Shown piece after piece: positions 1 through 20,480 of a DNA stretch of 27,384 bases. The position numbers and the translations under genes are program-made. Position 1 is the stretch's first letter, and each line of letters opens with the position of its first letter. This stretch comes from a virus. The DNA is taken from IMG/VR virus record IMGVR_UViG_3300032288_003132, positions 1-27,384 of that record; one strand, written 5' to 3'. Under the pieces are notes generated by a model. The model saw only the letters and a list, made by a program, of their open reading frames with translations, did not search any database and was not told the origin of the DNA.

Positions 1-48
1 ATACCATTTGTTAATAGTACCGGTTTTTGAATATGAAAAATTGAAATA

Positions 49-171
49 TTAGTAGATTAGAATACACTTATCCATTCTCAAAGAACAATCAATGTTTGCT
101 AAATCATCTCTAGAATAATCTAAATCACCAAAGTTTAAATCAGTCATGAAACAACCTTCAAGTAACCATTT
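49..171 (-). other. C-terminal remainder of the tail tube gene, in frame after the TAA
   Basis: Reading on in the same frame past the TAA at 172-174 gives KWLLEGCFMTDLNFGDLDYS, then RDDLANIDCSLRMDKCILIY, then TAA at 49-51. The LNFGDLDYS...DLANIDCSLR pattern is what I recall for the C-terminal strands of gp19-like tube proteins in T4-like phages. The combined length is right for the family. Neither a +1 nor a -1 shift at the stop joins the two parts, because both alternative frames close within about 20 codons. Only a point substitution, such as a GAA (Glu) codon changed to TAA, or readthrough or suppression, joins them. An internal ATG (residue M of CFMTD) exists but would give only about 32 residues. 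Confidence 0.8.
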
Positions 172-537
172 TTAAACAACTACTCCTGTTGGGTCTAACA
201 TTTCTAATTCAATATCTTTTTTATAACCAGCAGCATATCCCATACGACCAGTTACTGTTTCAGCGTGAAGACGGAACCATTCCATTAATGCTTGTGCAGC
301 TGAAGGTCCAATTGGGTCTCTAAATTTCACTTTAATTTCATTCCATTCAAATTGACCTGCTACGTATGTTTTTGTGTTCAAAAAAGGTATTTCTACTGAT
401 TTGATTTTTGCGTTAGGTCTACTTGCAGAAGTTACGTACCATTCGTTGATACCCAAAGTTGATGGAAATCTAACGATAAATCGGTTGACTCTTTTTGGCT
501 CGTACGGAGACGGCATTTTCATTAATAAATCGGCCAT
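172..537 (-). CDS. 19: Tail tube protein, T4 gp19-like (N-terminal 121 residues, ends at an in-frame TAA)
   Basis: This gene encodes the inner tube of the contractile tail, through which DNA passes. The 121 residues begin MADLLMKMPSPYEPKRVNRF and contain features typical of T4-like tube proteins: an N-terminal NRF(I/V)VRFP strand, a SVEIPFLN segment near residue 50, and DPTGVVV just before the stop. The ORF ends at a TAA (172-174), but the same frame continues for 40 codons (52-171, stop at 49-51) with an unmistakable tube C-terminus. The uninterrupted product would be 162 residues, nearly the 163 of T4 gp19. The gene lies downstream of the sheath gene on the same strand, as gene 19 follows gene 18 in T4. 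A TATTTATA box lies 37 nt before the ATG. The family call is confident. Whether the stop is real, read through or an assembly error cannot be decided here. Confidence 0.85.
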   Translation of the reverse strand: MADLLMKMPSPYEPKRVNRFIVRFPSTLGINEWYVTSASRPNAKIKSVEIPFLNTKTYVAGQFEWNEIKVKFRDPIGPSAAQALMEWFRLHAETVTGRMGYAAGYKKDIELEMLDPTGVVV

Positions 538-574
538 ATTGTGTTTGTTAAGTTTTTAGTATTATTTACTTTCT

Positions 575-582
575 TATAAATA
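575..582 (-). promoter_or_regulatory. TATTTATA promoter-like box upstream of tail tube gene
   Basis: On the minus strand the sequence reads TATATTTATAAGAA, 37 nt before the tube ATG. The sheath gene has nearly the same string at exactly the same 37-nt spacing. T4-type late promoters have only a -10-like TATAAATA element and no -35. This box resembles that arrangement but not its exact sequence. Promoter function is inferred. Confidence 0.45.
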
Positions 583-666
583 TACCAGTATTAGAAAATA
601 TTTTTTTAAAATTAATTATACGAAAAACTTGATTTTTCATTTTTTTTTTCGTAGTTTTTTACTATT

Positions 667-771
667 CCAGTATATAAGTACCAGTATAAATAAATATTCT
701 TTATATTTCTTTTTTAAATTCAATTAAAATTAATAAATAATGGTACCAGAATATAAGTTCCAGTATACTGG
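667..771. repeat. CCAGTATA repeats with a 12-bp palindrome
   Basis: A 22-bp unit, CCAGTATATAAGTACCAGTATA at 667-688, recurs at 746-767 with two substitutions. Each unit contains two CCAG(T/A)ATA copies spaced 14 bp apart. The last copy extends to the perfect palindrome CCAGTATACTGG (760-771). A further partial copy (ACCAGTATTA) lies near 584-593. The arrangement resembles binding sites for a dimeric DNA-binding protein or replication iterons. The function is unknown. Confidence 0.6.
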
Positions 772-823
772 GTATATCTTTATAATTTTCTTATTAGTTA
801 TGTTCATTTAACATAATATCTAG

Positions 824-837
824 GTTCCACGTGGAAC
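824..837. promoter_or_regulatory. Perfect 14-bp palindrome matching a parS core (GTTCCACGTGGAAC)
   Basis: The string GTTCCACGTGGAAC is fully self-complementary. Its CACGTG centre and flanking TTC/GAA match the core of bacterial centromere (parS) sites bound by ParB, as in the GTTnCACGTGnAAC pattern. The outer bases (G on the left, G on the right) differ from the usual T...A ends. It lies between the sheath terminator and the CCAGTATA repeats. No parA or parB gene is in this window, so ParB binding is only a hypothesis. Confidence 0.45.
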
Positions 838-848
838 GTGTACAATAA

Positions 849-875
849 AAAAGGGAGTCTTTCAACCCCCCTTTT
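849..875 (-). terminator. Rho-independent terminator after the tail sheath gene
   Basis: On the minus strand a 9-bp stem (AAAAGGGGG pairing with CTCCCTTTT, one G-U pair) encloses a 9-nt loop and runs into six consecutive U residues, about 18 nt after the sheath stop codon. It should end the sheath transcript before the tube gene, which has its own promoter-like box. Confidence 0.7.
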
Positions 876-892
876 CCTCTAATCAATTTCGA

Positions 893-3800
893 TTAAATAT
901 TCTCAAATGAAGCTCCTGTTGGTGTAATTACAAATTCCAAATCTATGTACTCCAAACTTCTAGTTGGCTTTATGTAGATTTTTCCTCTTAATGTATTTGC
1001 ATCAATGTCAGCAGGGTCGTTAGATACCGATACACGGAAATCATATAAACCTCTTTCTTTCTTAATTGAATCTAATATTGGATTTACTAATTTTAAGAAT
1101 TCATTTCTTACTTGCTCATCGTTTTGTTCGAAAAGTAATCTTACAGAAACAGCTGAAATAAGCTTTCTTGCTCTTAATAATAGTCTTCTTACGTTAATTC
1201 TATCTAAAGCTGATTCTCTAACTTGTAACGTTTTGTTACCCCAAATAATTGTACCAGTGTCTGAGAATGTCGCAATAGGGTTAACTCTATTCTTATATAA
1301 AGTATCTCTTTCGTCTAAAGTAAGCTTTTTAGCTGCTTTAATAGATGTTACCAAACCTCTAGAATAACCCGCCACCGCGAACCATGGATAAGATACATTA
1401 TCAGTTAAAGCAATGTTTCTTAATACCTCACCTGTTGGTGGAAGGTAAATTTGAGTTGCGTTATCTGTGTCTCTTACTTGAATCCAAGGCCAATATGTTG
1501 CAGAATAGTTAGAATCTATTGATACTAAATCTAATTCACCAACTAAACTATCTGAATCTGATACATCAACAGGGCCTGGTGAATTCATAATATATAATGA
1601 ATCTGCTCTATCTGATTCAATCATTTCAATTGCTTGATTCACCAAAGAACTATGTTGGAAGAAGTTAATACCCGGAGTTGCAAAAACATTAATGTCAATT
1701 GCTTCTGGATTAGCGTATGTCTCAATACCTTGTAGATATGAATAATAATCTGAGTTACCAAGAGTTTCACTAAAAACACCATTGTTTACAGTGTTACCTG
1801 AAACATATGTTTTTTTACCAAAAATATACTCATCGCTATTTGTTCTATTTTGTCTGTAAATGTCCCAACCATCTCTACCACCAAACACCACTGTTGTGAA
1901 TTTTCTATAGTTGATGTTTTGCATGTAGTTTGTTGAACCATCAGTAGGGTCGCTTTGGCCTTCTAAATCATAAGGAGTTGTCATGTATGCAAACCCAACA
2001 GTATTTCCTGAAATATTTGGTAAATCTAATACTGAAACCCCTTTAGAATCAACAGTTAAAGATGTTGCTCCGGTAATGTGTGCCGCGTTATAAGATAAGT
2101 GGAAACCGAATGTTTGAGCTTCCGCTGACGCACCTTTATATTTTAATAAATCACTATCAAAACCTGCTTCAGAAGAAACACCTAACATTACTTTTCTTAC
2201 TTTATCTCCTGATTCAACTCTTGCAATACCATCTTCTGTATATGTTTCAATATCACCAGCAACATTATATTTGGTTTTATATGCGATATTACCAAACTTA
2301 GCTCCTTCGTATAAACCAGCATCATTATATTGTGGTAAACCTTTGAAACCAGCAGGGAATGCATCTGTTGGTGCATTTGTTGCCATGTTTAACATGATAT
2401 ACTTAGAATTCAATGGATATTCACCATCAGAAGTACCAATTTTTCTTGCTACATAACCCGGAACATCAGGATTCATTGAACATCTTGTGTATTTTTCAAT
2501 AGCAACTTGATTGTCATCAGTATCGTTAAAATCACGAACTAAAATATCAAATTCCGATGTATCAACATTAATATTTTGAATTGTTATTTTTATTTGCGTA
2601 TTTGCTGTTTCACCATCAGGAACAGTAATAACTTCGAATAAATCTGCAACTTTACCACCCCTTACTTCAGATACAATCATTGGTGAGATAGGTGTGTCGT
2701 AACCCTTTAAGAAATTATCGTTAACATCTTCATCAACATAAGTTGCAGTCATTTTTATACCTCTAATTAATCCTTTTTCATATGCTTTTTTCAATAAATT
2801 AGGATATACTTCATGAACGTATACTGGAAATTCTCCAAATGTTTTATCAAATGTTTCAGTACCAAATACCTTAGATATGAATTTTGTTGATGCAGTATTA
2901 AAAGAAACACCGAATTGCTTAACGCCACCAGTTGCACCTGTTACATTTACAAAGAAATCACCTAATGGGTTTATTGCCATATTGTCGGTATCAACCTCTA
3001 ATGTAAAAGCATTGTCATTGGTAACTTCTAATTCTAAAATCTCATTAGCTACGTAACGTCCTCTTGAACGTAATGTTGCAATTACCGCATTATTATACTC
3101 AGTATATGGTGTAGCATCGTAGAATATTTTAGTTACTTCCCAATGCGGGGTATTTCCTGTAAAACTTGGTGTTGCACCACTAAAGAATTGGAAAACGTAA
3201 GAATAAACAGCATCTACGTTATTATCTTCATCAGCGCCACTGCTAACATGATACATAGAATTATACCATTCTTTGTTATTAGGGCTATCTTCATATAGTT
3301 TACCTGTTAATGGTGAAGCTTGTTCTTTAGTAGATGGTAATGTGATATTAGCATCATCTAAATAATCTTCAATTTTACCAATTGCAAACCATTTAAGGTT
3401 GTCAGCACTGGTATAACCACTAAAGTTTTTAACGATATAATCGTCCATTGATGATCCATCAACCGCAGTTAAATTAGCGATAAATTGATAGTCATTGAAC
3501 GAAGTTGAGAAAGAAGACAATGATGTTAAGATTACGCTGGTATCTTGATCCGTGTAACCTGTATATTCCTCTAGTCTAATACCACCTATTGCTGTAATAG
3601 CAAAAGATTTATTAGGTTTATAACCCGTTAGACCCAATACTCTTGTTACGAATAATTGGTTTGATTCTTGTAAATAAGATTTAGCGTTGTATGGTAATTC
3701 ATACTTTGGATAACCATTACCATACTTTTCTGGTGAAGTGCCACCAAAATAAGTTTTGAACTCATCAAAATTTGTAATCAAAATTGGTTCAAAAGCAGGA

Positions 3801-3922
3801 CCTTTTAATGTTTCACCTACTAGACCTAATGTTGTTACACCTACACTTTGAGCTACGAATGTAAGATCTACCTCTGATGTATAGACACCTGGTGATACAA
3901 ATACTCTGTTGTTACTAGCCAT
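893..3922 (-). CDS. 18: Tail sheath protein, T4 gp18-like, enlarged (1009 aa)
   Basis: This is the contractile sheath subunit that polymerises around the tail tube. The N-terminus (VFVSPGVYTSEVDLT, about residues 7-21) is the classic sheath start, with a GLVGETLKGPAF handle shortly after. The last roughly 140 residues carry the conserved core: TGTIIWGNKT, the RINVRRLLLRARK helix, and a terminal IKPTRSLEYIDLEFVITPTG strand. T4 gp18 has 659 residues, so this protein has about 350 extra, mostly in the middle, where variable surface-exposed domains of sheaths are normally inserted. The gene is followed by a terminator hairpin (849-875) and preceded by a TATTTATA box 37 nt before the ATG. It sits between the gp15-like and tube genes, matching T4 gene order without genes 16 and 17. 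The family call is certain; the role of the inserted domains is unknown. Confidence 0.95.
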   Translation of the reverse strand: MASNNRVFVSPGVYTSEVDLTFVAQSVGVTTLGLVGETLKGPAFEPILITNFDEFKTYFGGTSPEKYGNGYPKYELPYNAKSYLQESNQLFVTRVLGLTGYKPNKSFAITAIGGIRLEEYTGYTDQDTSVILTSLSSFSTSFNDYQFIANLTAVDGSSMDDYIVKNFSGYTSADNLKWFAIGKIEDYLDDANITLPSTKEQASPLTGKLYEDSPNNKEWYNSMYHVSSGADEDNNVDAVYSYVFQFFSGATPSFTGNTPHWEVTKIFYDATPYTEYNNAVIATLRSRGRYVANEILELEVTNDNAFTLEVDTDNMAINPLGDFFVNVTGATGGVKQFGVSFNTASTKFISKVFGTETFDKTFGEFPVYVHEVYPNLLKKAYEKGLIRGIKMTATYVDEDVNDNFLKGYDTPISPMIVSEVRGGKVADLFEVITVPDGETANTQIKITIQNINVDTSEFDILVRDFNDTDDNQVAIEKYTRCSMNPDVPGYVARKIGTSDGEYPLNSKYIMLNMATNAPTDAFPAGFKGLPQYNDAGLYEGAKFGNIAYKTKYNVAGDIETYTEDGIARVESGDKVRKVMLGVSSEAGFDSDLLKYKGASAEAQTFGFHLSYNAAHITGATSLTVDSKGVSVLDLPNISGNTVGFAYMTTPYDLEGQSDPTDGSTNYMQNINYRKFTTVVFGGRDGWDIYRQNRTNSDEYIFGKKTYVSGNTVNNGVFSETLGNSDYYSYLQGIETYANPEAIDINVFATPGINFFQHSSLVNQAIEMIESDRADSLYIMNSPGPVDVSDSDSLVGELDLVSIDSNYSATYWPWIQVRDTDNATQIYLPPTGEVLRNIALTDNVSYPWFAVAGYSRGLVTSIKAAKKLTLDERDTLYKNRVNPIATFSDTGTIIWGNKTLQVRESALDRINVRRLLLRARKLISAVSVRLLFEQNDEQVRNEFLKLVNPILDSIKKERGLYDFRVSVSNDPADIDANTLRGKIYIKPTRSLEYIDLEFVITPTGASFENI

Positions 3923-3959
3923 TGATTAATGTTTGGATTAATAAAATTTATTGTTTTCT

Positions 3960-3967
3960 TATAAATA
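3960..3967 (-). promoter_or_regulatory. TATTTATA promoter-like box upstream of tail sheath gene
   Basis: The minus strand reads GATATTTATAAGAAAAC, with the box 37 nt before the sheath ATG. The spacing and flanking AAGAAA are the same as at the tube gene. Function is inferred from recurrence. Confidence 0.45.
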
Positions 3968-4014
3968 TCTTTGTTTATTGCAAAGATTTCGCTAGTTTTC
4001 ATTAAAAAGATAGT

Positions 4015-4022
4015 TATTTATC
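4015..4022 (+). promoter_or_regulatory. TATTTATC promoter-like box upstream of the small plus-strand gene
   Basis: TTATTTATC lies 16 nt before the ATG of the 51-residue gene. It is a one-base variant of the box found elsewhere, so support is weaker. Confidence 0.3.
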
Positions 4023-4038
4023 TTAAAGTATCTTTTAT

Positions 4039-4194
4039 ATGAAAGCACAACAGAAAAATGTCAAAATCAGCGAAAAACACCACGAAATGCTAAAAACCTA
4101 TTGTGACCAGAAAGGACTTAAAATTTATAAGGTTTTAGAAAAATATATTGACGAATTGTGTAAACCCAAAAAGAAAGATATCTATGGCGAATAG
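4039..4194 (+). CDS. Small ribbon-helix-helix-like protein, possible DNA-binding regulator (51 aa)
   Basis: A 51-codon ORF starts MKAQQKNVKISEKHHEMLKT and ends KKKDIYGE before TAG. The pattern is a short basic N-terminus, a strand (NVKIS), a helix (EKHHEMLKTYCDQKG), a second helix (KIYKVLEKYIDELC) and a lysine-rich tail. This is what Arc/CopG-type ribbon-helix-helix repressors look like, and such small proteins are frequent in phages. It reads opposite to its neighbours, diverges from the sheath gene, and its stop codon directly abuts the stop of the gp15-like gene (4195). A TATTTATC box lies 16 nt before the start. A local repressor of the divergent sheath promoter is a reasonable guess, but function is not demonstrated. 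Codon use looks genuine. Confidence 0.65.
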   Translation: MKAQQKNVKISEKHHEMLKTYCDQKGLKIYKVLEKYIDELCKPKKKDIYGE

Positions 4195-5469
4195 CTAGAA
4201 CAGATATTTTACATTTACAACAGAACCAATCGAGGGTATCCCTAGTAATTTTATTTGTTTAACATTCGTAATAATAAAATTGTCATTTTCATCTTGAGCC
4301 AACCCATTGATATCTAAACTAATAAACGTGTCAATATTATTAGTCAAATTTATAAATGGTGAGCTACTTGTGATTGTTATATTATCGGTAAATAAATTAA
4401 CCACTTTACCATAGTTGTTAATAAAGGTTGTAACGTTATCCGCTTTTTGCGTTTTTTTACCTTTGAAATATTGTATTGTTATAATATCATCAGTTTGTGG
4501 TGCACCAAGCGTTGTAATCTTCGAAGTACCCGGTATATGGAGGTAGTTTATATCCTTGATTATTAACTCATTATTGATATACACATTAAAAATTGTTGAC
4601 ATAGGTTCCCCAACACTAAAAACAGTTTGGGTGCCATTTGCTCTGATATTAACAGTAGTAACATCGATACCGCCATTTTTCATTGTTTTATTAACTGGGT
4701 TATCAATAATAAACTCAGTCATTAATAACGCTCTACTAATAGCTGGTTTTACCTCAAATTCTTCATGGTCAATCAATAGCCCTAACATTATAAATGTATA
4801 TGTTTGTAAATAAAACCTACGTGAATCTATATTTTCAATAGGAGAATTGTCCGCAATTGATTCTAATATAATTGGAATATAATGACCTTTGATATTTGTA
4901 TATGCTTGTTTTGATGAAAACTTTTGCATAACCAGTTTACTAAATTTATTTAAATCCCTGAATTTTGTACAAACAATTGTAACGTCAAATGTTAAATCAA
5001 CAGCAACAGGCTGCGGAATTTTATAAACATCAGCACCCATTTGATTACCATTCCATGTTGGAACTGTTGCATAAAAAAATGTTCTTCTATCAGGAATATT
5101 ATAAATCGTACTTGGATTTTTACCAATTTGAGCGTCCGGTTTTCTAATAACCGCAATTAAAGGTAGTTTAGGGTTTCCGTCGTCATCTGAAAAAGACCAA
5201 TTGTTAGCAAACTCACCCCATCTTTGAATTGTCATAATCTTATCAACAACAGGGATTTTCTGTCCATCTGTAACAATTTTAAAATTCTCTTTTACAAACT
5301 CCAACATACCCATGTCTAAATCATCATGCAAAACAGAGTCTGGTAAGAATGTGTCAGATTTAGTTATGGATTCTAAAAGATCTTGTCTTCTATCCATAAT
5401 CTCACTTCCGTATAGTACGGGTTTATTCCCGTAAACGTTTATATTGTTTTTTCTTTTAGGTATTCCCAT
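4195..5469 (-). CDS. Tail completion / sheath terminator protein, T4 gp15-like
   Basis: This protein probably caps the proximal end of tube and sheath and joins the tail to the neck. In the middle of the protein the pattern VDLTFDVTIVCTKFRDLNKF, then YIPIILESIADNSPIENIDS, then RRFYLQTYTFIMLGLLID follows the order and spacing I recall in T4 gp15 (YELSIFTRYEDDMFQIVEQI ... IKIVLMSAAIDEAID ... RRRIEWSLTFEVNGWM). About 170 extra C-terminal residues follow, with no recognised domain. A longer frame opens at 5508, but I prefer the ATG at 5467-5469 (MGIPKRKNNIN). It follows the upstream stop by one base and has GAGGAG about 8 nt before it, one of the few Shine-Dalgarno-like sites in the window. Its place between gp14-like and sheath genes supports the call. 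Confidence 0.7.
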   Translation of the reverse strand: MGIPKRKNNINVYGNKPVLYGSEIMDRRQDLLESITKSDTFLPDSVLHDDLDMGMLEFVKENFKIVTDGQKIPVVDKIMTIQRWGEFANNWSFSDDDGNPKLPLIAVIRKPDAQIGKNPSTIYNIPDRRTFFYATVPTWNGNQMGADVYKIPQPVAVDLTFDVTIVCTKFRDLNKFSKLVMQKFSSKQAYTNIKGHYIPIILESIADNSPIENIDSRRFYLQTYTFIMLGLLIDHEEFEVKPAISRALLMTEFIIDNPVNKTMKNGGIDVTTVNIRANGTQTVFSVGEPMSTIFNVYINNELIIKDINYLHIPGTSKITTLGAPQTDDIITIQYFKGKKTQKADNVTTFINNYGKVVNLFTDNITITSSSPFINLTNNIDTFISLDINGLAQDENDNFIITNVKQIKLLGIPSIGSVVNVKYLF

Positions 5470-5470
5470 G

Positions 5471-5983
5471 TTATACTCCTCTAAATTCCCCTTCCTGTAC
5501 AATCGCACAAGTAATGGTTCTGTAATGCGGTTTATAACCGAACATTTTATGTTTATTATCTGAAGTTACTTTTCCATCATTCACAACAGTGTAAAACCTA
5601 ACCTTGTCTTCAGAATCCTGATACCCAATATAATCACCATATCTAATATCAATATTTAATTCATTAAGGTGTTTAATATATACGGAAACAACCATATTAC
5701 CTGGTTCTTGATATCTTAATATACCATTTTTATATGTTGCATTTTTTGGTTCATCAATTTTAACCAATCCATTGAATTCAATCGGAGGTAGATATTTTAT
5801 ATCATCTTTACCCGCTTCAGCATAAACCGAATCTGTTCCTGTTTTATTCATGTCAACACGATATAAAACTAACTTCATATTTAAATCGCCATGAAGATAC
5901 TCTTCACCCATTTGTATATTGATGTCAAAATCGTCTTGAGAGAAAAATTTACCTAAACGCGTAATTGGTAATTTGTTTTCCAT
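5471..5983 (-). CDS. Neck protein, probably T4 gp14-like (170 aa)
   Basis: This is a predicted connector between head and tail. The 170-residue protein contains KLVLYRVDMNKTGTDSVYAE, a GLVKI strand, and the segment YGDYIGYQDSEDKVRFYTVV followed by an aromatic FGYKPHYRTI strand. T4 gp14 has a comparable layout (GDLIYFP...FEINWVEPY...FYQLG), and proteins of this pattern accompany sheath genes in other T4-like phages, as far as I remember. It is shorter than T4 gp14 (256 residues). It is translationally coupled to the gp15-like gene, with the stop and the next ATG separated by one base. A TATTTATT box lies only 5 nt before its ATG. The gp14 assignment rests on synteny plus weak similarity; a structural head-tail protein is safer. 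Confidence 0.6.
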   Translation of the reverse strand: MENKLPITRLGKFFSQDDFDINIQMGEEYLHGDLNMKLVLYRVDMNKTGTDSVYAEAGKDDIKYLPPIEFNGLVKIDEPKNATYKNGILRYQEPGNMVVSVYIKHLNELNIDIRYGDYIGYQDSEDKVRFYTVVNDGKVTSDNKHKMFGYKPHYRTITCAIVQEGEFRGV

Positions 5984-5988
5984 ATCCT

Positions 5989-5996
5989 AATAAATA
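5989..5996 (-). promoter_or_regulatory. TATTTATT box 5 nt before the gp14-like gene
   Basis: The minus strand reads CTATTTATTAGGATATG. If the box is a -10 element, the transcript would start at or beside the ATG, giving a nearly leaderless mRNA. Confidence 0.35.
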
Positions 5997-6041
5997 GTTT
6001 AATGTTACAATCTATTTAACTATATTTTTATATATATTGTT

Positions 6042-7793
6042 ATGGAAATTAAGATACCTGAAGTAGAAGCTAGGGGGATATTAGAAAATTATGAAGGTTC
6101 TAATAATCAACTATTAGAATGGAAAAGAAAATTTGTCGAGCAGAAAGGCTTCAAGTTAACTAGACCGCAATCTGAATATGTTATAAAATACAAAGATGTA
6201 ACACCTAAAATTGCTAGAAAATATATTGATATTGTCGGTTCATTCGCAGATAAAATAATGGAAGATAAATTACTTCCAAAACCACCTGAAAAAATATGGG
6301 TCGAAAAATTATTATGCGAAACGGATAAAGCATATCATATGTGGGGTAAGGTTACCGAAAATGAAACCCTACATGCAATGTGGATACCAAAAGTTGCAAT
6401 CGTACAACAAGAAAAAAAATTAGCTAGAGAAATTGATTATACACCATATGCAAATCGCGCACCTATGGAACATCAAAAAGTTGCGATTGAAAAACTATTA
6501 GCAAATAATAAATTTATTCTTGCTGACGACATGGGTTTAGGTAAAACCACATCAGCAGTTATTGCCGCATTAGAAAGTGAAGCTAAAAAGATTTTAATTG
6601 TGTGTCCAGCATCTTTAAAGATAAATTGGGAAAGAGAAATCAGAAATTATAGTGACAGAAAAATTTTAATAGTTGAAGGTCGTAAATGGGGTTCAACGTT
6701 TGACTTTTATATTATTAATTATGATATAATTAAAAATTATCATACAACAGATAAAAGTGAAGATAGTGACGATTATAAATTATTAGTTAACGCCGGATTT
6801 GATTTAGCTATTGTTGATGAAGCTCACTACGTATCAAACAATACAGCACAAAGAACACGTTTATTAAATGATGTTTTAGAACAAATACCAAAGGTTTGGT
6901 TATTAACTGGTACGCCAATGACGTCAAGACCAATCAATTATTTTAATTTATTAAAGATTGTAGATTCGCCATTAACATTAAATTGGCAAACATATGTTAG
7001 AAGATATTGCAAAGCATTTCAATTTAAAGTTGGTAATAGAAAAGTTTGGAACACAAGTGGTGCAAGTAATTTAGATGAATTACGTGAACAAACAAAATCA
7101 TATGTTTTACGTAGAATGAAAACTGACATTCTTGACTTACCTGAAAAAATTGTTACACCTATTTTTGTTGAATTGAATAGTAAAATGTATGATGAGGAGA
7201 TGGACGATTTCACAAGAATCAGTAATGATAATAAAGATAAGGAAACAATATCTGTAACATTGAATCGTTTAATGAAAGTAAGACAATTAATTTCATATGA
7301 AAAAATACCATATACATGTGAGATAATTGATAGGTGCTTGGAACAAGGAAAGAAAGTTATTATATTAACTAATTTTACGATGACATTAGATATGTTACAT
7401 GAAAAATATAAGAAAAACTCTGTAACACTTGATGGTCGAATGTCTAAAGATAAAAGACAAGACGCTGTTGATAAATTTCAGAACGAAAAAAAATATCAAA
7501 TTTTTATTGGTAATATTAAAGCTGCCGGTGTTGGTATTACATTAACTGCCGCTGAAGTTGTTATTATGAATGACCTATCATTTGTTCCTGCCGACCATTC
7601 TCAAGGTGAAGATAGAGCATATAGGTATGGACAGAAAAATAGTGTTTTAGTTTACTATCCCATTTTTGAAAACACAATAGAAAGAGTCATTTACAATATT
7701 TTACAAAAGAAAAAAGGTGTCATTGACCAAGTGATGGGTGACGGAGAATATTCTGAATCATTCAGCAAAGACTTTATCAAACAGCTATTCTAA
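6042..7793 (+). CDS. SNF2-family DNA helicase/translocase (583 aa)
   Basis: This is a superfamily 2 ATP-dependent DNA motor, probably acting in phage DNA repair, recombination or fork remodelling. All expected motifs are present: Walker A in DDMGLGKTT (about residues 162-170), motif Ia CPASLKINW (188-196), DEAH (259-262), motif III LTGTP (288-292), the SNF2-typical YVLRRMKTD (354-362), motif V GVGITLTAA (496-504) and motif VI QGEDRAYRYGQ (521-531). The RAYRYGQ motif and LRRMK place it with SNF2/SMARCAL1-like proteins rather than with T4 UvsW, although the role may be similar. The N-terminal 140 residues are unassigned. It is placed unusually between gp14-like and gp13-like neck genes. It ends overlapping a small convergent gene by 9 nt. 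Confidence 0.9.
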   Translation: MEIKIPEVEARGILENYEGSNNQLLEWKRKFVEQKGFKLTRPQSEYVIKYKDVTPKIARKYIDIVGSFADKIMEDKLLPKPPEKIWVEKLLCETDKAYHMWGKVTENETLHAMWIPKVAIVQQEKKLAREIDYTPYANRAPMEHQKVAIEKLLANNKFILADDMGLGKTTSAVIAALESEAKKILIVCPASLKINWEREIRNYSDRKILIVEGRKWGSTFDFYIINYDIIKNYHTTDKSEDSDDYKLLVNAGFDLAIVDEAHYVSNNTAQRTRLLNDVLEQIPKVWLLTGTPMTSRPINYFNLLKIVDSPLTLNWQTYVRRYCKAFQFKVGNRKVWNTSGASNLDELREQTKSYVLRRMKTDILDLPEKIVTPIFVELNSKMYDEEMDDFTRISNDNKDKETISVTLNRLMKVRQLISYEKIPYTCEIIDRCLEQGKKVIILTNFTMTLDMLHEKYKKNSVTLDGRMSKDKRQDAVDKFQNEKKYQIFIGNIKAAGVGITLTAAEVVIMNDLSFVPADHSQGEDRAYRYGQKNSVLVYYPIFENTIERVIYNILQKKKGVIDQVMGDGEYSESFSKDFIKQLF

Positions 7794-7979
7794 TTTCATT
7801 TTAACATCCTCGATAAGTTTAGGTAAATCTTTCGCTTCAGAATCGCCAATTGTGGCTGTTATTATTTTATTATCGTCATCAAGGGTAATCGTATTAGTTT
7901 TTTCCTCTGAAATATTAAAATGGAACTCATAGTTCTTTTTTATCCCTAATTGAAATAGTTCTAAAATTGTAGTATTCAT
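7785..7979 (-). CDS. Small hypothetical protein (64 aa)
   Basis: A 64-residue acidic protein begins MNTTILELFQLGIKKNYEFH and ends EDVKMKLE before TAG. It alternates predicted strand (YEFHFNI, TNTITL, KIITATIG) with a C-terminal helix (KDLPKLIEDVKMKL), consistent with a small folded alpha/beta protein. It overlaps the helicase end by 9 nt (convergent) and starts 37 bp from the divergent gp13-like gene. A plus-strand frame in the same place is low-complexity and less protein-like, so I favour this one. I do not recognise the family. Confidence 0.55.
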   Translation of the reverse strand: MNTTILELFQLGIKKNYEFHFNISEEKTNTITLDDDNKIITATIGDSEAKDLPKLIEDVKMKLE

Positions 7980-7994
7980 AACCTAAATATAAAG

Positions 7995-8002
7995 TATTTA
8001 TT
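7995..8002 (+). promoter_or_regulatory. TATTTATT promoter-like box upstream of gp13-like gene
   Basis: GTATTTATTAG lies 14 nt before the ATG at 8017, within a 37-bp divergent gap. It has the same box and strand orientation relative to the gene as elsewhere in the window. Confidence 0.35.
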
Positions 8003-8016
8003 AGAATATACCAAAT

Positions 8017-9138
8017 ATGGCACAGATTATTACACAAGAAGAAAAAGACAAATTATATACCCAAGTATTCCATTTATTAGGTATGCCTGTACGTGGAATA
8101 GAATTAACCGAAGAACAAATGGATACGTTCTTGGAGCTTTCATTATCCGAATACGAACAATATGTTAGTGATTGGTTAATCGAATCTCAGTGGTCTGCAT
8201 TAGCAGGTTTAGATGTTGATAATCAATCTTTGACTAGAGCATTTACAACCCGTAGTCTAGATTATGAAACACAATTTACATATTCATATTCTAAGATTGT
8301 TGGCCTACAAGCAGGGGGTGATTGGGAATTAAAAAAAGACTTTATTACATTGGAAAGAGGTGTGCAGAGTTATCAAATCCCTGCTGGACGTGAGGTTAAT
8401 GAGTTATTATGGTTTACACGTGCAGCATTAACAGATTCAATCATAGATCCGTTTTTAGGTGGATTTGGTGGATTAGGTGGTGTTGGCTTTGGTGGTATTG
8501 GCGGGTTTGCTCAGATGGGTAATGCAGGTTCATATTTTATGATGCCAGCTTTCGATTTATTATTAAGAATTCAAGATAGAAAACTGAAGAATAAAATTAT
8601 TGGTGGTGAATTAACATATAGAATTACCGCGGGGCCAGAAGGCACTAAAGTAATTCATTTACATAATACACCGGGCGGTAAATTTGACTTCTCTAATATT
8701 GCATCAAATAACTATCAAGTTTGGTATTGGTATTATGATACTCATGATAAAGATAGAGACGAATGTTTAGCAAAAAACAAAGATATCATTAAACTACCAT
8801 CAGATGTTGAGACTGAATCATTAGATTGGGAATCATTAAATAAACCAGCACAAAACTGGGTAAGAAAATATTTGATTGCATTTTCTAAAGAAGGCCTCGC
8901 AAGAATTTGGGGTAAATTCTCAGGAGACCTTCAAGTACCAGATAGCTCTGTTAAATTAGATTATAGCTCTTTATTGACAGAAGCCAAAGACGAAAAATCT
9001 AAATTGGTTGAAGAGTTAATGCAACGTCTAGAAAGATTACGCCCTGACAAATTATTAGAAAGAAAAGGTAATGAAGCTGAATACTTAAACAAGTCGCTTA
9101 AGTACAGAGCTATGCCAATACCAATTGAAGTAATTTAA
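8017..9138 (+). CDS. 13: Neck protein, T4 gp13-like (373 aa)
   Basis: This is a head-completion or neck protein that links portal and tail. The N-terminus (KLYTQVFHLLGMPVRGIELT, then EEQMDTFLELSLSEYEQYV) matches the T4 gp13 pattern LGAP..NVELTPDQI..C...AL..Y.EY. The C-terminal region (NWVRKYLIAFSKEGLARIWG, then KFSGDLQVPDSSVKLDYSSL and LTEAKDEKSKLVEELMQRLE) parallels the gp13 end (RWVKDYATALAKE.NGQILAR...LPGGV.IDGQRLIEEA..EK..L.EEL). A glycine-rich stretch near residues 147-165 occupies the position of the gp13 glycine-rich loop. It is somewhat longer than T4 gp13 (309 aa). It lies on the opposite strand from the gp14/gp15-like genes and its stop overlaps the polymerase stop by 4 nt. Confidence 0.75.
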   Translation: MAQIITQEEKDKLYTQVFHLLGMPVRGIELTEEQMDTFLELSLSEYEQYVSDWLIESQWSALAGLDVDNQSLTRAFTTRSLDYETQFTYSYSKIVGLQAGGDWELKKDFITLERGVQSYQIPAGREVNELLWFTRAALTDSIIDPFLGGFGGLGGVGFGGIGGFAQMGNAGSYFMMPAFDLLLRIQDRKLKNKIIGGELTYRITAGPEGTKVIHLHNTPGGKFDFSNIASNNYQVWYWYYDTHDKDRDECLAKNKDIIKLPSDVETESLDWESLNKPAQNWVRKYLIAFSKEGLARIWGKFSGDLQVPDSSVKLDYSSLLTEAKDEKSKLVEELMQRLERLRPDKLLERKGNEAEYLNKSLKYRAMPIPIEVI

Positions 9139-12041
9139 GACTCTATAGCATGTAATGCATAATCATGATTATCGTTATTGATTATTTCTTCCTCATTAGA
9201 AATAATACTCATTTCTTGCATAGATACTACCTTTCTATTTTTATCTACCCAATATGGGTCTGCTAATTCTAAACTATCTTCTACATACATGAAGTAAGGG
9301 TCTCTTTGAACTCTATTCCAAAACAACACCTCACTATCAGATAGTGTCATAACTTCTTCTAATTTATCTTGTCCTTCTTCTTTTAATGGAAACCCATTTA
9401 CTAATTCACATTGCATCTTAGTAAAATATTGTCTATCTTTCGGGTCTTCAATTAAAATGTCTTCTCTTATTTCAGGTTTAAAAACAACTAATAAAGGTTC
9501 TAGTCTTTTATTGAACACACTTAAGTATCGTGCAACATTATATTCACCGGTTAAGTCAGGATTGTTTTGAATTTCCTTCTCTGGTATCATATAACAATTG
9601 ATATTAAGAACTGAATGATTTTCAGGCATTGGACTTCCATTTTTTTCTAGATATTCTGCAACTTCCTTTTTAGTCCATTTGTTTTTCTTTTCAACATCAC
9701 CCGATGATTTTTTTACACCATTGTTAACATAATAAATCGTGTCACCTAAACCTGCAGGATGGTCATTTAAAATGATTAATTCCATATGTGCTTGTCTAGA
9801 CATTAATGAACCTGATTTTGTTGTTTTAGTAATATGTTTTTTATAATCTTCAACAGATTGTTTAACACGAGACTTATTTGCAATTTTAGCTAATGGAATT
9901 TTATTATTAAAAATTCTATCAACATAATCATAATACAATTCAACAAACTCTAACCCCTTACCATCTAATAACATTTTTAAACCTTCATCTAAAAACTCAA
10001 CAATATATTGTTGCATCTTTTTTGATTTAATTGTGTTACCAGTTAATTTAATTTTTTCTTTCCCTTTCTTTACTAATTTGATAATATAATTTTTACGAGA
10101 AACATTAATACACGCCGGTGCCGTGTAGTCAATATCCAAGCCCATTTCATTTCTCATGAATGTATCATTGAATTCTGCTGTATCCGCTTCGATACCATTA
10201 TATTCTTTACCTTCTATTACTAATTCATTTAATCCTTTACCAATATATTTGTGTTCTTCAATATCAATTGGAGTTTCAAAGTTTACACCATCCGTATCCA
10301 TTACCAAAGGCTTATACCCTTTCTTCATATAGAACATAATCATCATGCGAAGACATTGACGACCAACACATGTGATTGTTTCACCCATATTCATATCACC
10401 CCATGGAAATACGTGCGGTGCTGATAATGAACCAAAGTATGCGTTAATAAAAATTTTAATCGGTAATTGCTTTCTATCATACATTTCCGATTCAACAGGA
10501 TTTGTTTTTGCTAATTCAGCAGTTAATCTTTTATATTTAATACGAATGTTACGAAAATATTTTAACATCGATTTTTGTACTCCCATCACATCACATTCAG
10601 GAAACACATCATACACTAATTGTATTGATGGATAAAGTGACGCAAAGTCAAACTTAACAATATTCTTAGAATAACCAACATTTAATAATCTTGATAACCC
10701 ACCCGTAATTGGTCTTTTTTCATCTTTAGCTGGTATTGCCAATCCGTTTTCAAATGACCATGCTAACATGATAATTTTCCATAACGTTGCAGTACCCATT
10801 GTTGCAATCCTTTCATATGTAGTAGGTACTAGCTTTGATAATAAAAATGTTGATTGTGAAAACGAATCATCAACAACCATTGTTTCATACAAGTCATCAT
10901 CTAGATATTGTTCTACTATTTTTCTACCTGTCCATATTTCAAATTTACCCGGATATTTTTCTAATAAATTTTCAGTACCGGGTTCACCAATTAATTTATA
11001 ATTTCCTGTTTTTGGATTTGTATAATAGCTTTCATTATCTAAATAAATTTTAGAAATTTTACTACCCTCAACATACACACGATTTGGTTTTTCTTTTTCC
11101 AAATACGTTGTAATATATTTTAATCCCCAACTTTTAATTTCACTATTAATTGCTTGCGCTCTACGAACTGAATGTGCAATGTCAATAATATTAAATCCCC
11201 ATATCACATGTTGCTTATATGGTTCAACTTCGTTTGCAAGTTTTAACATTCCTTCCTTTTCCTTCATCCCTTGTGTTGTGAATATTTGTGTTAATCCATC
11301 AACATCAATTCCAAGTATTTCAGCTCGTTTTAAAATAAAAGGCCAATCGAATGACGCCGAGTTGTATCCACTAATAATAGTTGGTTTTAATTCACGAATA
11401 ATCTGAAAAAACTCTTCGATACATTTCTTTTCACCATCATCACCAAATGCGGGTATTGTTTTTTGTAAACCACGATTATCTTTAACTCCAATCAAAATGA
11501 TTTTACATTTTTCTGGTTCAAGACCCGTGGTTTCAATATCGAATACAAATCTATAAACACCTGAGTATTCATCGATACCTTTGAACAATCTTTTTTTCTT
11601 TTGTATCAAGTATTGTTCTACCGGATTTAAAACAGTAAACAAATGCCTACATTTTTCATCCCACGGATTTAACCCACCTTGCCTAAAAAAAGAAATTAAA
11701 TCTGTGTATGATTTTATACTCTTAACCAAGTACTTCATACCAGCCTCTAATCTTTCATTACCATGAGTTTCTAATTTATCGATAACAATTCCATATTCCC
11801 CCATTCTTTTCTTCTGAAGGGACTTAGAACCATTATAAAAATTCATTTCAGATAAATCACCAACCCAAATAAATGGTGTAAATGATGTATCTGGTTTTAC
11901 GATTTTTCCCTTTTCAGGGTCTTGTATAATTTTGAAAATTGTATTGGTGGGGTAGTCATATTCGATACCAACGATGTACATTTCATCGTCACCACCATTT
12001 AGAAAGTTTTCTATAACTTCCTGAGAGATAACCTCTTGCAT
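9135..12041 (-). CDS. 43: Family B DNA polymerase with 3'-5' exonuclease (T4 gp43-like, 968 aa)
   Basis: This is the replicative phage polymerase. Exonuclease motifs are intact: Exo I FDIETTGLEPE (D168, E170), Exo II GYNSASFDWPF (N227, D232), and Exo III around YLDDD (Y379, D383). Polymerase motifs are A, FDFASLYPSIQ (D465); B, KIFINAYFG (K529, Y535, G537); and C, VMDTDGVNF (D582, D584). Motif C carries Gly after DTD where most family members have Ser, and motif B has NAYFG where T4 has NSLYG. Length is close to T4 gp43 (898 aa). A second in-frame Met (residue 21) is a possible alternative start. The gene has its own box (TATTTATT, 65 nt upstream) and ends overlapping the convergent gp13-like gene. 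No helicase or clamp genes adjoin it. Confidence 0.95.
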   Translation of the reverse strand: MQEVISQEVIENFLNGGDDEMYIVGIEYDYPTNTIFKIIQDPEKGKIVKPDTSFTPFIWVGDLSEMNFYNGSKSLQKKRMGEYGIVIDKLETHGNERLEAGMKYLVKSIKSYTDLISFFRQGGLNPWDEKCRHLFTVLNPVEQYLIQKKKRLFKGIDEYSGVYRFVFDIETTGLEPEKCKIILIGVKDNRGLQKTIPAFGDDGEKKCIEEFFQIIRELKPTIISGYNSASFDWPFILKRAEILGIDVDGLTQIFTTQGMKEKEGMLKLANEVEPYKQHVIWGFNIIDIAHSVRRAQAINSEIKSWGLKYITTYLEKEKPNRVYVEGSKISKIYLDNESYYTNPKTGNYKLIGEPGTENLLEKYPGKFEIWTGRKIVEQYLDDDLYETMVVDDSFSQSTFLLSKLVPTTYERIATMGTATLWKIIMLAWSFENGLAIPAKDEKRPITGGLSRLLNVGYSKNIVKFDFASLYPSIQLVYDVFPECDVMGVQKSMLKYFRNIRIKYKRLTAELAKTNPVESEMYDRKQLPIKIFINAYFGSLSAPHVFPWGDMNMGETITCVGRQCLRMMIMFYMKKGYKPLVMDTDGVNFETPIDIEEHKYIGKGLNELVIEGKEYNGIEADTAEFNDTFMRNEMGLDIDYTAPACINVSRKNYIIKLVKKGKEKIKLTGNTIKSKKMQQYIVEFLDEGLKMLLDGKGLEFVELYYDYVDRIFNNKIPLAKIANKSRVKQSVEDYKKHITKTTKSGSLMSRQAHMELIILNDHPAGLGDTIYYVNNGVKKSSGDVEKKNKWTKKEVAEYLEKNGSPMPENHSVLNINCYMIPEKEIQNNPDLTGEYNVARYLSVFNKRLEPLLVVFKPEIREDILIEDPKDRQYFTKMQCELVNGFPLKEEGQDKLEEVMTLSDSEVLFWNRVQRDPYFMYVEDSLELADPYWVDKNRKVVSMQEMSIISNEEEIINNDNHDYALHAIES

Positions 12042-12106
12042 ATTTTATTTTTTATAATGTGACGTATTAGCTTACAACCTAAATTGCAATTTGCCTTGTT
12101 TACATC

Positions 12107-12114
12107 AATAAATA
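12107..12114 (-). promoter_or_regulatory. TATTTATT promoter-like box upstream of DNA polymerase
   Basis: The minus strand reads TATATTTATTGATG, 65 nt before the polymerase ATG. The gap 12042-12132 holds no gene. The recurrence of the box is the only evidence. Confidence 0.35.
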
Positions 12115-12132
12115 TAAAAAAAATATGCCGTA

Positions 12133-12501
12133 TTAAAAAATGTTAATGTATAATTTTTCTCTAATCGGTAATATTAACTTGTTAGTATTATTACCATTAC
12201 CATCATTGAATTGTATAGTTATTTTACCCTCATACCTACCAGATTCACTAGTTTGTTCTTCGGTAAACCTGTATGTGATATAATATTCGTCGTTTGTGTA
12301 ATTAAATTTTTTTGTTCTATTTGTTAATTCACATTCTGCACCATATACATAAGGTGTACCAGTTTTAACATCAACCATTTCAAATGTGATATCAGCATTC
12401 TCAACCAATTCATTGAATTGAGATTTGTCATTTTTTCCATCGTCAACCATTCTCATTTTTAAAATTGGGTCGGTTGCGCCTTGTCTTATATAAAAGTCCA
12501 T
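12133..12501 (-). CDS. Baseplate/tail accessory protein, possibly BppU N-terminal-like (122 aa)
   Basis: The 122-residue protein starts MDFYIRQGATDPILKMRMVD and continues with ADITFEMVDVKTG, a YYITYRF strand, SGRYEGKITIQF and a final LILPIREKLYINIF strand. This all-beta pattern (RQG...P.L...L.D...DL..ADITFEM.D..TG...Y.W...T...G.YEGEI.I.F....L..P) resembles the N-terminal domain of BppU-type baseplate upper proteins, which attach receptor-binding proteins. Similar small proteins occur next to fibre genes in other tailed phages. It starts within TAATG, overlapping the previous gene's stop by one base, so the two are translationally coupled. The family link is from memory of the pattern and moderately uncertain. 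Confidence 0.55.
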   Translation of the reverse strand: MDFYIRQGATDPILKMRMVDDGKNDKSQFNELVENADITFEMVDVKTGTPYVYGAECELTNRTKKFNYTNDEYYITYRFTEEQTSESGRYEGKITIQFNDGNGNNTNKLILPIREKLYINIF

Positions 12502-12743
12502 TACTTAATTGTTAAAATATATTCGTTACCTGATTTAAATGGTGCAACATCCGTGTCTTTTAATTCCTTTGACATATAGTAAAATTCTTCTTTTACCATT
12601 TCAAATGGAAATCCTAATTCACCTTTAATTACACCTTTAATATGTTCTACCGTTAATGATTCGTCAGTTATAAAAGATTTTGTAACTCTTTTAATCTTCT
12701 GACCATCTTTTTTTACTATCGTATTTACATCTAATGTTTTCAT
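12501..12743 (-). CDS. Hypothetical protein (80 aa), coupled to baseplate-like gene
   Basis: This 80-residue protein (MKTLDVNTIVKKDGQKIKRV ... EYILTIK) is of mixed charge with no membrane segment. Its TAA overlaps the ATG of the following gene by one base (TAATG), so the two are probably made together and may interact. I do not recognise the family. The context, at the start of the fibre block, suggests a small structural or assembly protein. Confidence 0.65.
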   Translation of the reverse strand: MKTLDVNTIVKKDGQKIKRVTKSFITDESLTVEHIKGVIKGELGFPFEMVKEEFYYMSKELKDTDVAPFKSGNEYILTIK

Positions 12744-14902: not shown

Positions 14903-16621
14903 TTATGTTAATATAATTTTAATCTTATCAGTTGGTGATATTGATAATCCACCAAGTGTTACTGCACCAGCAGCATATCCATTTAATACAGATCCGTAAC
15001 CATCCACATCATTTTTCAATATTGTAAATGTTGACCAAAATCCTGTACCACCAAAATCAAGTTGAAGTGTGTTCATTCCATTTCCATCAACGTTAATGTC
15101 ATGATTTGCTCTATATACTTCACCTACACCTAATGGTAATGACCCACCATCTAATGATAAAGGTTCACTAATTGCCCCATATTTTATTGCTGTAACCGTT
15201 CTTGTTGAATTACTATTAACAATCCAAAACTCAGGGATTGGTGTTGGTGAAGGGGTCGGTGTTAACGTTGGTGTTTCTGTTGGTGTAGGAGTTGGTGTAT
15301 CCGTTGGTACCGGTGTTTCAGTTTCCGTTGGTGTTGGTGTAGGAGTATCTGTAGGTACTGGTGTAGGTGTAACCGTTGGTGTGCTTGTTGGTGTTGCAGT
15401 TGGTGTAGGTGTTGGGTCAAGAACTGTTGTTAAAACCACTTTCATCCATGATGTGTCAGTATGAAAATATAAATTTGAACCAGAAACAACCATATCACCA
15501 AGTGATGAACTTGTTGGTAATTCTAATATTGAATTTAATTTTAATAAATTATTTATTGTTGTTCCGCTTGTTGCATTAATTGTAATTTTTTCATCATTTG
15601 AATCTATTTTAACATAGTTCGTGTCGTCACCAAAAAATGAATATGCTGCATTACCCTTAATATGTATATCACCAGCATCGGTATTATATATTTGAACGCT
15701 TCTACTATCAGTAATATCTGGTTGTATATTCAATGAACCTGTAGCTTGTATTTGTGATGTTTCAACATAACCAGCAACTTTCAAATCATTAGCTAATTTA
15801 ACACTACCACTAAATTCATATGTAAATCCTGAAGTAATACCAGATGTATTAAAACCAACTTGTTTATTACTTAATATATTAATTTGTGGGTCTTCAAAAC
15901 TACTTGAAGCAAAAAGATGTATATGTCCGTGATTCTCACCACCATTCATTGAACCAATAAATAAATCCTGTCCGTTCATTATTAAGTAACCATCATTTTG
16001 TCCACCAACATTTTGTACTTCACTATAGTTACTTGAGTTAATACCTAAATTAATATATAACTCATTTTCATTACCATTATCCGCGGTCAATACTAAATCG
16101 GTTGAAGACGTTTCGCCAGAAACTGTGTTTTTAACATTAATTTGTGAATATGTATCGCTATTACCAACTAAGTAAGCAATATTATAGCTACCAGAGCTGT
16201 ATACATGAATCATTTCCGGATTACCACTAATTAAAGAACCACTACCAATAATAATTGAGTTTGAAAATTTAGTTGTATCGGCATTTACAGATAAAACATT
16301 TGCTTCTTCATTAATATCATGACCTATTTTTGGGTTGTTATTTCCGGCACCAAACTTAATAATACCAGAGCCTGTGTCATACACACCCTTAACAACTACA
16401 GTATTTAAACCTGAGTCATCACCCAACCATGCAGCATTTCCAACTTTAAAATTGTCAGTTGTACCGGTATTCGTTGCGTGAAAAAATGGTTGTATATTAC
16501 TACCAGTTAGTAAATTACTTACACTTATTTTTTTAGTTTCTCCTGAATTAACAATTGGTAACGTATCACCCGATAATGGTGCTGTAAGTTCGTTTAATTG
16601 TGATATTTTTTGATTTGCCAT
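14903..16621 (-). CDS. Putative tail fibre with Pro-Thr linker (572 aa)
   Basis: The N-terminal 40 residues ([20 protein letters not shown] then [14 protein letters not shown]) form a module shared with the collagen-like protein at 20481-22805, suggesting a common attachment or trimerisation element. The following roughly 360 residues are repetitive and beta-rich ([19 protein letters not shown] at the end), as expected for a fibre shaft. A (Pro-Thr)n linker of about 60 residues (15235-15417) leads to a C-terminal globular domain of roughly 90 residues ([20 protein letters not shown] ... ILT), the likely exposed tip. A TATTTATA box lies 19 nt before the ATG. It is probably a host-recognition fibre; the receptor is unknown. 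Confidence 0.7.
15235..15417 (-). repeat. (Pro-Thr)n linker-coding repeat
   Basis: Degenerate GGTGTTGGTGTAGG-type DNA encodes [20 protein letters not shown] and similar strings. It separates fibre shaft and tip domain in the gene at 14903-16621. Confidence 0.9.
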
Positions 16622-16640
16622 TTTGTTGTTTTATCTTTTA

Positions 16641-16648
16641 TATAAATA
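16641..16648 (-). promoter_or_regulatory. TATTTATA promoter-like box
   Basis: The minus strand reads ATATTTATATAAAAG, 19 nt before the ATG of the 572-residue fibre gene. The box matches the recurrent motif exactly. Confidence 0.4.
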
Positions 16649-16690
16649 TTAATTTTTATTTGTATCTTTTATTATTTATTGTTTTTTATT

Positions 16691-18670
16691 TTATATTGGT
16701 GTTGGTGTCGGAGTATCCGTAGGATTTGGCGTTGGTGTTGGAGTTGGTGTGTCTGTAGGTACAGGTGTACTTGTTGGTGTAGGTGTAGGTGTCATTTCAG
16801 GGAACACAGCTTTTAATGTTGCTGTATCACCGGTGACAGTTACAATGGTATTAGATGAATTAGATACAGGTAAATTGACATTAGTACCCTCCCAATTTTG
16901 GAATAACCCACTACTATTAAATGCAATGATAGAATATTGTTGATTTTTAATAACATTAATTGTTGTATCCGATGTATATGTGACTCCATTGAATGAAATA
17001 CCGCTGTACCCCATAACTATATCAATATCTAACGACGCCATTTCTGGAGTTGGTGTTGGAGTTGGTGTAGGTGTCGGAGTTGATGTTGGTTCAGGTGTTG
17101 CAGTTGGTGTCGGCGTAAGTGTAGGAGTTGGTGTTGGAGTTGGTGTATCAAAAGTTACAATTGGTTGTGATTCACATAATACTATAAATGTTCTTTCATC
17201 GGCAATAACAAATGAGCCGTCAGCAACTAATAACCAACCACTACCATTTGGAGCCGGTCCAGGTCCGTAGAACCATATATGACCATTTGTTAGTTGTCTA
17301 ACCGTTCCCTGATCATCAACGAAATACCAACCTGGTTGCGGTGGATTACTTGGATTTTCAAATGATTGTCCTATTGATATGTAATTATAATCATACCCGT
17401 TCCATGCAACTCCAGCTTGTTTAAAGAAATAATGTGATGTTCCACAATTACTTACACTAAAGCCATTATATACTGGTATTGGATATGGTGTAGATGTTGG
17501 TGTAACTGTAGGAGTTGCTGTTGGTGTTGGCGTAGGTGTTAATGTAGGTGTAGATGTAGGTTCAGGTGTTGGTGTTACCGTAGGCGTTGGTGTTAGCGTA
17601 GGTGTAGGTGTAATTGTTGGAGTCGGTGTTGGGGTTGGAGTTAATATTAATAATTCATATGTAAAATCATTAGATGGAAAATCTAATAATATATAATCAT
17701 CATTTTCTTGTAATAAGAAATCACCATCCTCTTTTAATAAACTATAATTTTGAGGTTCAGGTGTAGGGGTTGGTGTAACCGTTGGATCTGGTGTTGGGGT
17801 AACCGTAGGAGTTGCAGTTGGTTCCGGCGTTGGAGTTGGTGTAGGACAAGCTATACAATTGTCTCTATATGTTGCAACATTGGTGTTATTTAAATCAACG
17901 GTTTTAACATAACCACCATAGGTAATATATCCATAACCATTTAAACTAAATTCATCTCCGTTTGTTACAAAATTATTTGATTCACAAAACGTTGCTCCGT
18001 CTCCTGTCACATAAAATGTTGGACACCCAGGACAATTATCACAAACTTCAGGACCTTCTCCTAGTGTTATTTGACCATAGAATAATGTTGGTGTTGGTGT
18101 AGGTGTTGGTGTGTCAGTAGGCACCGGTGTAGGTGTTGGTGTATCAGTAGGTACCGGTGTAGGTGTTGGTGTTGGTGTATCTGTCGGTGTCGGTGTTTGT
18201 GTCGGTGTTGGGGTTGGCGTATCCGTCGGAGCACTTGTTGGTGTTGGTGTTGGCGTAGGTGTTGGTGTATCAGTAGGTACTGGCGTAGGTGTTGGTGTAG
18301 AATCAGTATATGATGTCCAGTATCCATTATTTAATAACCATGCTCTAGCATCTAAACCATCAACAAAAACCAATCCAGATGTAAATGGTAATACCGCTAA
18401 TAAAGATAAAAAGGATTGCTCTGTTAATAAATCAGAACGATAAAATCCAACATACGCTTCGTCAGATGAAACCGGATTTGGATGGTCACCAGTTGGCACT
18501 TCAAAAGCAACAACATAACCTAATTCTTCATCTGGTCCCATCCACCATTTTACTCCACCATAATCTAATGCGTATTCTACTTCTATGTTACCAATTACAA
18601 TATTACCATATTGTGTTGTTCCGAATATTGGTAATCCAGTATTTCGTGCGAAGGGTCTTGTTGTTGCCAT
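16691..18670 (-). CDS. Multi-domain adhesin-like protein with five Pro-Thr linkers (659 aa)
   Basis: Beads-on-a-string architecture. The N-terminal domain of about 125 residues (FARNTGLPIFGTTQYGNIVI ... WWMGPDEELGYVV ... AWLLNNGYWTSYTD) is followed by PT linker 1. Next come a Cys-rich module (GPEVCDNCPGCPTFYVTGDG ... YRDNCIACP), linker 2, a short SLLKEDGDFLLQENDDYILL element, linker 3, and a module of about 100 residues (FSVSNCGTSHYFFKQAGVAW ... FIVLCESQP). After linker 4 there is a bacterial Ig-like module (LDIDIVMGYSGISFNG ... LKAVFPE), and then linker 5. The protein ends inside linker 5 ([11 protein letters not shown], stop), with no terminal domain, unlike its neighbours. It is probably a virion surface protein binding host or environmental glycans. 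A TATTTATA box lies 7 nt before the ATG. The function of the individual modules is inferred. Confidence 0.7.
   Translation of the reverse strand: MATTRPFARNTGLPIFGTTQYGNIVIGNIEVEYALDYGGVKWWMGPDEELGYVVAFEVPTGDHPNPVSSDEAYVGFYRSDLLTEQSFLSLLAVLPFTSGLVFVDGLDARAWLLNNGYWTSYTDSTPTPTPVPTDTPTPTPTPTPTSAPTDTPTPTPTQTPTPTDTPTPTPTPVPTDTPTPTPVPTDTPTPTPTPTLFYGQITLGEGPEVCDNCPGCPTFYVTGDGATFCESNNFVTNGDEFSLNGYGYITYGGYVKTVDLNNTNVATYRDNCIACPTPTPTPEPTATPTVTPTPDPTVTPTPTPEPQNYSLLKEDGDFLLQENDDYILLDFPSNDFTYELLILTPTPTPTPTITPTPTLTPTPTVTPTPEPTSTPTLTPTPTPTATPTVTPTSTPYPIPVYNGFSVSNCGTSHYFFKQAGVAWNGYDYNYISIGQSFENPSNPPQPGWYFVDDQGTVRQLTNGHIWFYGPGPAPNGSGWLLVADGSFVIADERTFIVLCESQPIVTFDTPTPTPTPTLTPTPTATPEPTSTPTPTPTPTPTPEMASLDIDIVMGYSGISFNGVTYTSDTTINVIKNQQYSIIAFNSSGLFQNWEGTNVNLPVSNSSNTIVTVTGDTATLKAVFPEMTPTPTPTSTPVPTDTPTPTPTPNPTDTPTPTPI
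16694..16794 (-). repeat. C-terminal (Pro-Thr)n repeat of the 659-residue protein
   Basis: This encodes [20 protein letters not shown] and the following [14 protein letters not shown], running directly into the stop codon. Confidence 0.85.
17045..17150 (-). repeat. (Pro-Thr)n linker-coding repeat
   Basis: This linker sits between the VSNCG...LCESQP module and the Ig-like module, encoding [20 protein letters not shown] and a following [17 protein letters not shown]. Confidence 0.9.
17480..17643 (-). repeat. (Pro-Thr)n linker-coding repeat
   Basis: This is the longest internal linker of the 659-residue protein, encoding [20 protein letters not shown] onward to STPYPIPVY. Confidence 0.9.
17755..17852 (-). 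repeat. (Pro-Thr)n linker-coding repeat
   Basis: This encodes [20 protein letters not shown] and DPTVTPTPTPEPQ between the Cys-rich module and the short LLKEDGDFLL element. Confidence 0.9.
18085..18303 (-). repeat. (Pro-Thr)n linker-coding repeat
   Basis: This encodes the first linker of the 659-residue protein, roughly 70 residues of PT, VPTDTP and SAPTDTP units. Antisense reading gives a spurious Gly-Val repeat frame (18111-18443). Confidence 0.9.
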
Positions 18671-18677
18671 TATGTTA

Positions 18678-18685
18678 TATAAATA
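18678..18685 (-). promoter_or_regulatory. TATTTATA box 7 nt before the 659-residue gene
   Basis: The minus strand reads GTATTTATATAACATAATGG. The box ends 7 nt before the ATG, in a gap of only 32 bp. Confidence 0.4.
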
Positions 18686-18702
18686 CTTTTATTTTCTTAT
18701 GA

Positions 18703-20466: not shown

Positions 20467-20470
20467 TATC

Positions 20471-20478
20471 TATAAATA
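20471..20478 (-). promoter_or_regulatory. TATTTATA box 4 nt before the 587-residue gene
   Basis: The minus strand reads CTATTTATAGATAATGG. The box is almost on the start codon, and the whole intergenic gap is 14 bp. Confidence 0.4.
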
Positions 20479-20480
20479 GT

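Follow-up and report, generated by a model that had tools for sequence, protein, structure and literature searches.

A tail tube gene of the T4 gp19 type, located on the minus strand (537..49) of a viral record that is linear and 27,384 nt long (hereafter, as a whole, the window), was found by translation to contain, as its codon 122, an in-frame TAA (172-174) that splits it. The comparisons reported below make it probable that this TAA is a one-base consensus error (G to T, converting GAA to TAA) situated near the end of the contig, in a tube gene that is otherwise normal and intact; a rare but real nonsense allele ranked second. The feature is consequently most likely an artefact, a nonsense codon confined to a single record, rather than a new way of reading genes.

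Layout and identity of the interrupted gene

The tube gene lies only 48 nt from the left end of the record and extends on the minus strand from an ATG at 537 to a final TAA at 49-51, thus comprising 162 codons plus a stop when codon 122 is counted. The open part ahead of the internal stop (codons 1-121; 175..537, minus strand), evident from both the list of open reading frames and the translation, encodes 121 residues ending in DPTGVVV. After the internal TAA (172..174, minus strand), the same frame continues through codons 123-162 (52..171, minus strand), which encode the 40 residues KWLLEGCFMTDLNFGDLDYSRDDLANIDCSLRMDKCILIY corresponding to the conserved C-terminal strands, before reaching the final stop (49..51, minus strand), an ordinary TAA occupying the same position as in relatives. 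The original prediction had placed the in-frame TAA directly after DPTGVVV, had recognised a gp19-like C-terminus in the following 40 codons, and had set the total of 162 residues beside the 163 of T4 gp19; each of these statements was confirmed, the coordinates being correct although the minus strand had not been mentioned. The C-terminus after the stop is homologous over its full length in the relatives, and the homology downstream of the TAA is therefore not due to chance. A frameshift or slippage was rejected as an explanation because downstream of the TAA the reading frame is correct as it stands and any shift would disrupt it; the original prediction had likewise stated that frameshifts in either direction do not repair the gene.

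Profile searches conducted with the read-through protein gave a match to PHROG 4542 ('tail tube protein') of 96 bits over residues 10-159, as against 57.5 bits for the truncated form; with PF06841, the read-through protein scored 24.9 bits, short of that family's cut-off (28.2). Across these tail-tube families the truncated form had a lower score or none. The sole sequence relative found in the PDB was T4 gp19. The adjacent gene (893..3922, minus strand) is an intact tail sheath gene, placed in the same order as in relatives and matching PHROG 23 at 213 bits. Taken together, the profile match, the predicted tube fold and the neighbouring sheath gene identified the product as a T4 gp19-like tail tube protein. 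The window's protein thus resembles T4 gp19 (PF06841; PDB 5W5F, 5IV5) in length, profile, predicted fold and sheath-gene neighbour, and differs from it in the low level of identity (18% by structural alignment) and in the internal TAA. The 1009-residue sheath protein matches PHROG 23 over residues 7-1007, yet the alignment takes in no more than some 450 positions of the profile, an indication of large insertions.

Predicted fold and effect of truncation

A structure model built on the intact tube protein of a relative (G011; mean pLDDT 69.6) contained nine predicted strands, those of the C-terminal part being located at 120-135, 148-154 and 157-160. In structure comparisons the model resembled 5w5f, the T4 tube (Foldseek E = 3.1e-7, TM = 0.64; VIA Z = 11.0, with an rmsd of 5.3 for 152 residues), as well as tubes of related injection systems. 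Since the stop at codon 122 cuts into strand 120-135, the long one, close to its beginning, the short form would lose three of the nine predicted strands, and on this model should not assemble into a tube.

Codon 122 in related tube genes

The IMG/VR collection was searched with residues 1-121 only, thereby excluding the stop itself from the query, and at least 594 relatives were recognised among at least 600 candidates. The best 80 were kept, of which 79 were read at codon 122: 77 had GAA or GAG (Glu), one had CAA, one (L039) had an in-frame deletion, and none had a stop. A tally of all loci compared gave 150 GAA, 52 GAG, one CAA and one TAA, the last being the window itself, although these figures take in overlapping loci and 120 loci picked by a pattern that requires Glu. 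An additional scan of IMG/VR for the pattern Gly-Val-Val-Val-(stop or Trp)-Lys-Trp, which recovers the window when run on the window, returned five loci, and no tube gene was among them; nor are L082 and L083, hits of a pattern with one Val fewer, tube genes. By sequence comparison the TAA at codon 122 was accordingly unique to the window's record among the records examined, in a collection that was compared without records very near the window and in which the window's own population is not sampled.

The exceptional L039 (IMGVR_UViG_3300008111_000027) carries, at 3001-3384, a tube gene with a clean in-frame deletion of 105 nt that removes codons from about 120 to 154 and leaves 127 amino acids. 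The deletion lies mid-contig, its flanks are identical to L020, and no microhomology was seen at the junction; it eliminates a large part of the segment lost through the stop in the window. No relatives of the tube gene turned up when bacterial and archaeal genomes were scanned, and hence there was no clue to the host.

Divergence on either side of the stop

Two contigs from two other metagenomes (L258 and L259), found by means of exact words of the window, aligned with it without gaps over 537 nt at 94% identity, and both had GAA at codon 122. As they were 99.9% identical to one another in their overlap, they were counted as one lineage present in two samples. The next closest relative, G011, proved collinear with window positions 36-12507 at 82.6% identity, and throughout this region the tube gene was the only interrupted gene, the other shared genes being intact. 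Tail tube genes of uncultured T4-like phages in IMG/VR, of which these three provide examples, share about 93-96% protein identity with the window's product, have the same gene order and carry a terminator in the same place; they differ from the window in having Glu at codon 122.

Changes relative to these close relatives were mostly synonymous after the stop, as they were in the N-terminal part. Between the window and G011, dN was 0.030 and dS 0.45 before the stop, while the corresponding values after it were 0.031 and 0.61; relative to L259, the C-terminal 40 codons showed four synonymous and two conservative changes. With dN equally low on the two sides of the stop, the codons downstream show no decay, and an old truncation followed by decay was ruled out both by this value and by the few changes relative to L259. 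Low dN does not, however, distinguish between an error and a mutation of very recent origin. The other changes near this end of the contig, D138 and K157, are also present in relatives, so that no cluster of obvious errors is seen there, a point against a consensus error.

The small number of nonsynonymous changes on both sides of the stop speaks against the proposal that the window's copy is dispensable owing to a second tube gene elsewhere in the genome, of which the window is only a part. One of the 15 long relatives (G004) does have a second tube-like gene, 44% identical; in the other 14 a single match was found, and the proposal is considered very improbable. In G004, a 310-kb relative and the contig of L030, this second, distant gene is located at 104383-104661.

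The contig end and the origin of the stop

In L259, and likewise in L258, the tube gene is followed by a complete terminator hairpin, of 15 bp in L259. The window retains only part of this intrinsic terminator (1..29, minus strand), the contig ending inside the 3' arm of the same hairpin. A chimeric contig end was rejected because the gap-free alignment with L258 and L259 extends up to and includes base 1 of the window. A distance of 174 nt, about one short-read length, separates the internal TAA from the contig end, and by our own arithmetic the chance of a random disrupting change falling within 174 nt of this end is approximately 1.4% (174/12,500, for the 12.5 kb compared).

The most likely sequence of events is as follows. 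The assembly would have broken inside the terminator hairpin after the tube gene, leaving the stop 174 nt from the break, in a part of the contig where read coverage may be thin; low read support could then have allowed a wrong base, T in place of G in the coding strand, to convert GAA to TAA. G to T changes are a known class of oxidative artefact in sequencing (PMC12390751). On this account the tube protein of the actual phage would be a normal gp19-like one of 162 residues. A consensus error is favoured by the uniqueness of the stop, the conservation of both flanks, the otherwise unbroken state of the comparable 12.5 kb, and the termination of the contig in a hairpin.

Against this, divergence among strains is another cause of contig breaks, so that a rare true allele may be found near a contig end. 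A genuine nonsense allele of this kind would be a recent mutation, probably lethal or conditionally complemented, such as one carried by a defective particle or by a phage that shares its cells with intact phage. It would need only a single substitution, the undecayed C-terminus is what a very recent mutation would be expected to leave, and the predicted loss of strands 120-135, 148-154 and 157-160 is consistent with loss of function. By way of contrast, a lethal change in an apparently single-copy structural gene would presumably be too rare to become the consensus, and the stop was present in none of the relatives examined. On balance, such an allele is judged unlikely, albeit a serious second to a consensus error. 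Both the substitution error and the nonsense allele had been among the three options offered by the original prediction, and both still stand, whereas the third, readthrough, is disfavoured by the sense codon in relatives, the lack of conservation of the stop and the lack of RNA structure. As a practical consequence, in-frame stops located no more than about one read length from the end of a metagenome contig, and especially those beside a terminator hairpin, need to be checked against relatives before recoding is claimed.

Readthrough, suppression and reassignment

Programmed readthrough or ochre suppression, yielding short and long tube proteins, would have been new in an essential, high-copy virion protein, and is suggested by the continuation of the conserved C-terminus in the same frame. 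The window being part of a genome, a suppressor tRNA may moreover be encoded elsewhere. When judged by codon 122 of the homologues, the proposal was not supported, every relative that has the codon carrying a sense codon there: a stop was present in none of the 79 relatives and in neither of the 94%-identical contigs. Bacteria terminate efficiently at UAA when the next base is A, which also counts against readthrough, as does the prediction that the short form would lose a third of its modelled strands. No stimulatory RNA structure was found after the stop, where the RNA folded no better than shuffled sequences (z = 0.08). There are no tRNA genes in the 27,384 nt of the window, and in eight long relatives, whose tRNA loci were searched with ARAGORN, no tRNA with a UUA anticodon was detected, either in the arrays of six (about 22 to 31 tRNAs) or among the few tRNAs of the other two. 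Production of two forms is judged highly unlikely. It is harder still to credit a strain that truly carries the TAA and makes a full-length tube through ochre suppression or readthrough, by means of a tRNA supplied from outside the fragment or by the host. The dense arrays, each of at least 22 tRNA genes, occur in the related large phage contigs G001, G002, G004, G005, G008 and G010 (L247-L253); G003 and G006, of similar size, have no tRNA genes.

Genome-wide reassignment of TAA to an amino acid is the least credible reading and is already contradicted. Reassignment of TAG or TGA does occur in phages (PMC11210395), but in the window TAA terminates 18 of the 21 candidate genes listed, upholding the earlier statement that it is not globally reassigned; the orthologues compared in G011 end with TAA at the same aligned places, and over the 12.5 kb collinear with G011 no other conserved gene contains an internal TAA.

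In Crassvirales and other phages in which TAG is read as Gln or TGA as Trp, in-frame stops occur within conserved genes, as in the window; such reassignment affects many genes, involves TAG or TGA, and is often accompanied by suppressor tRNAs (PMC11210395), whereas the window has one TAA in one gene only. The literature on readthrough in tail tubes yielded only a P2-type frameshift. In the P2 E/E+E' system one tail-region gene gives two forms, as was proposed for the window's tube, but the gene is a different one and the mechanism a -1 frameshift at a slippery sequence (PMC3091744); in the window there is no frameshift and the stop is not conserved.

Elsewhere in the window, beyond the part aligned with G011, positions 14903-22805 are occupied by a succession of long genes containing Thr-Pro repeats (TPTPTPT), together with a gene with Ser-Gly-Thr repeats.
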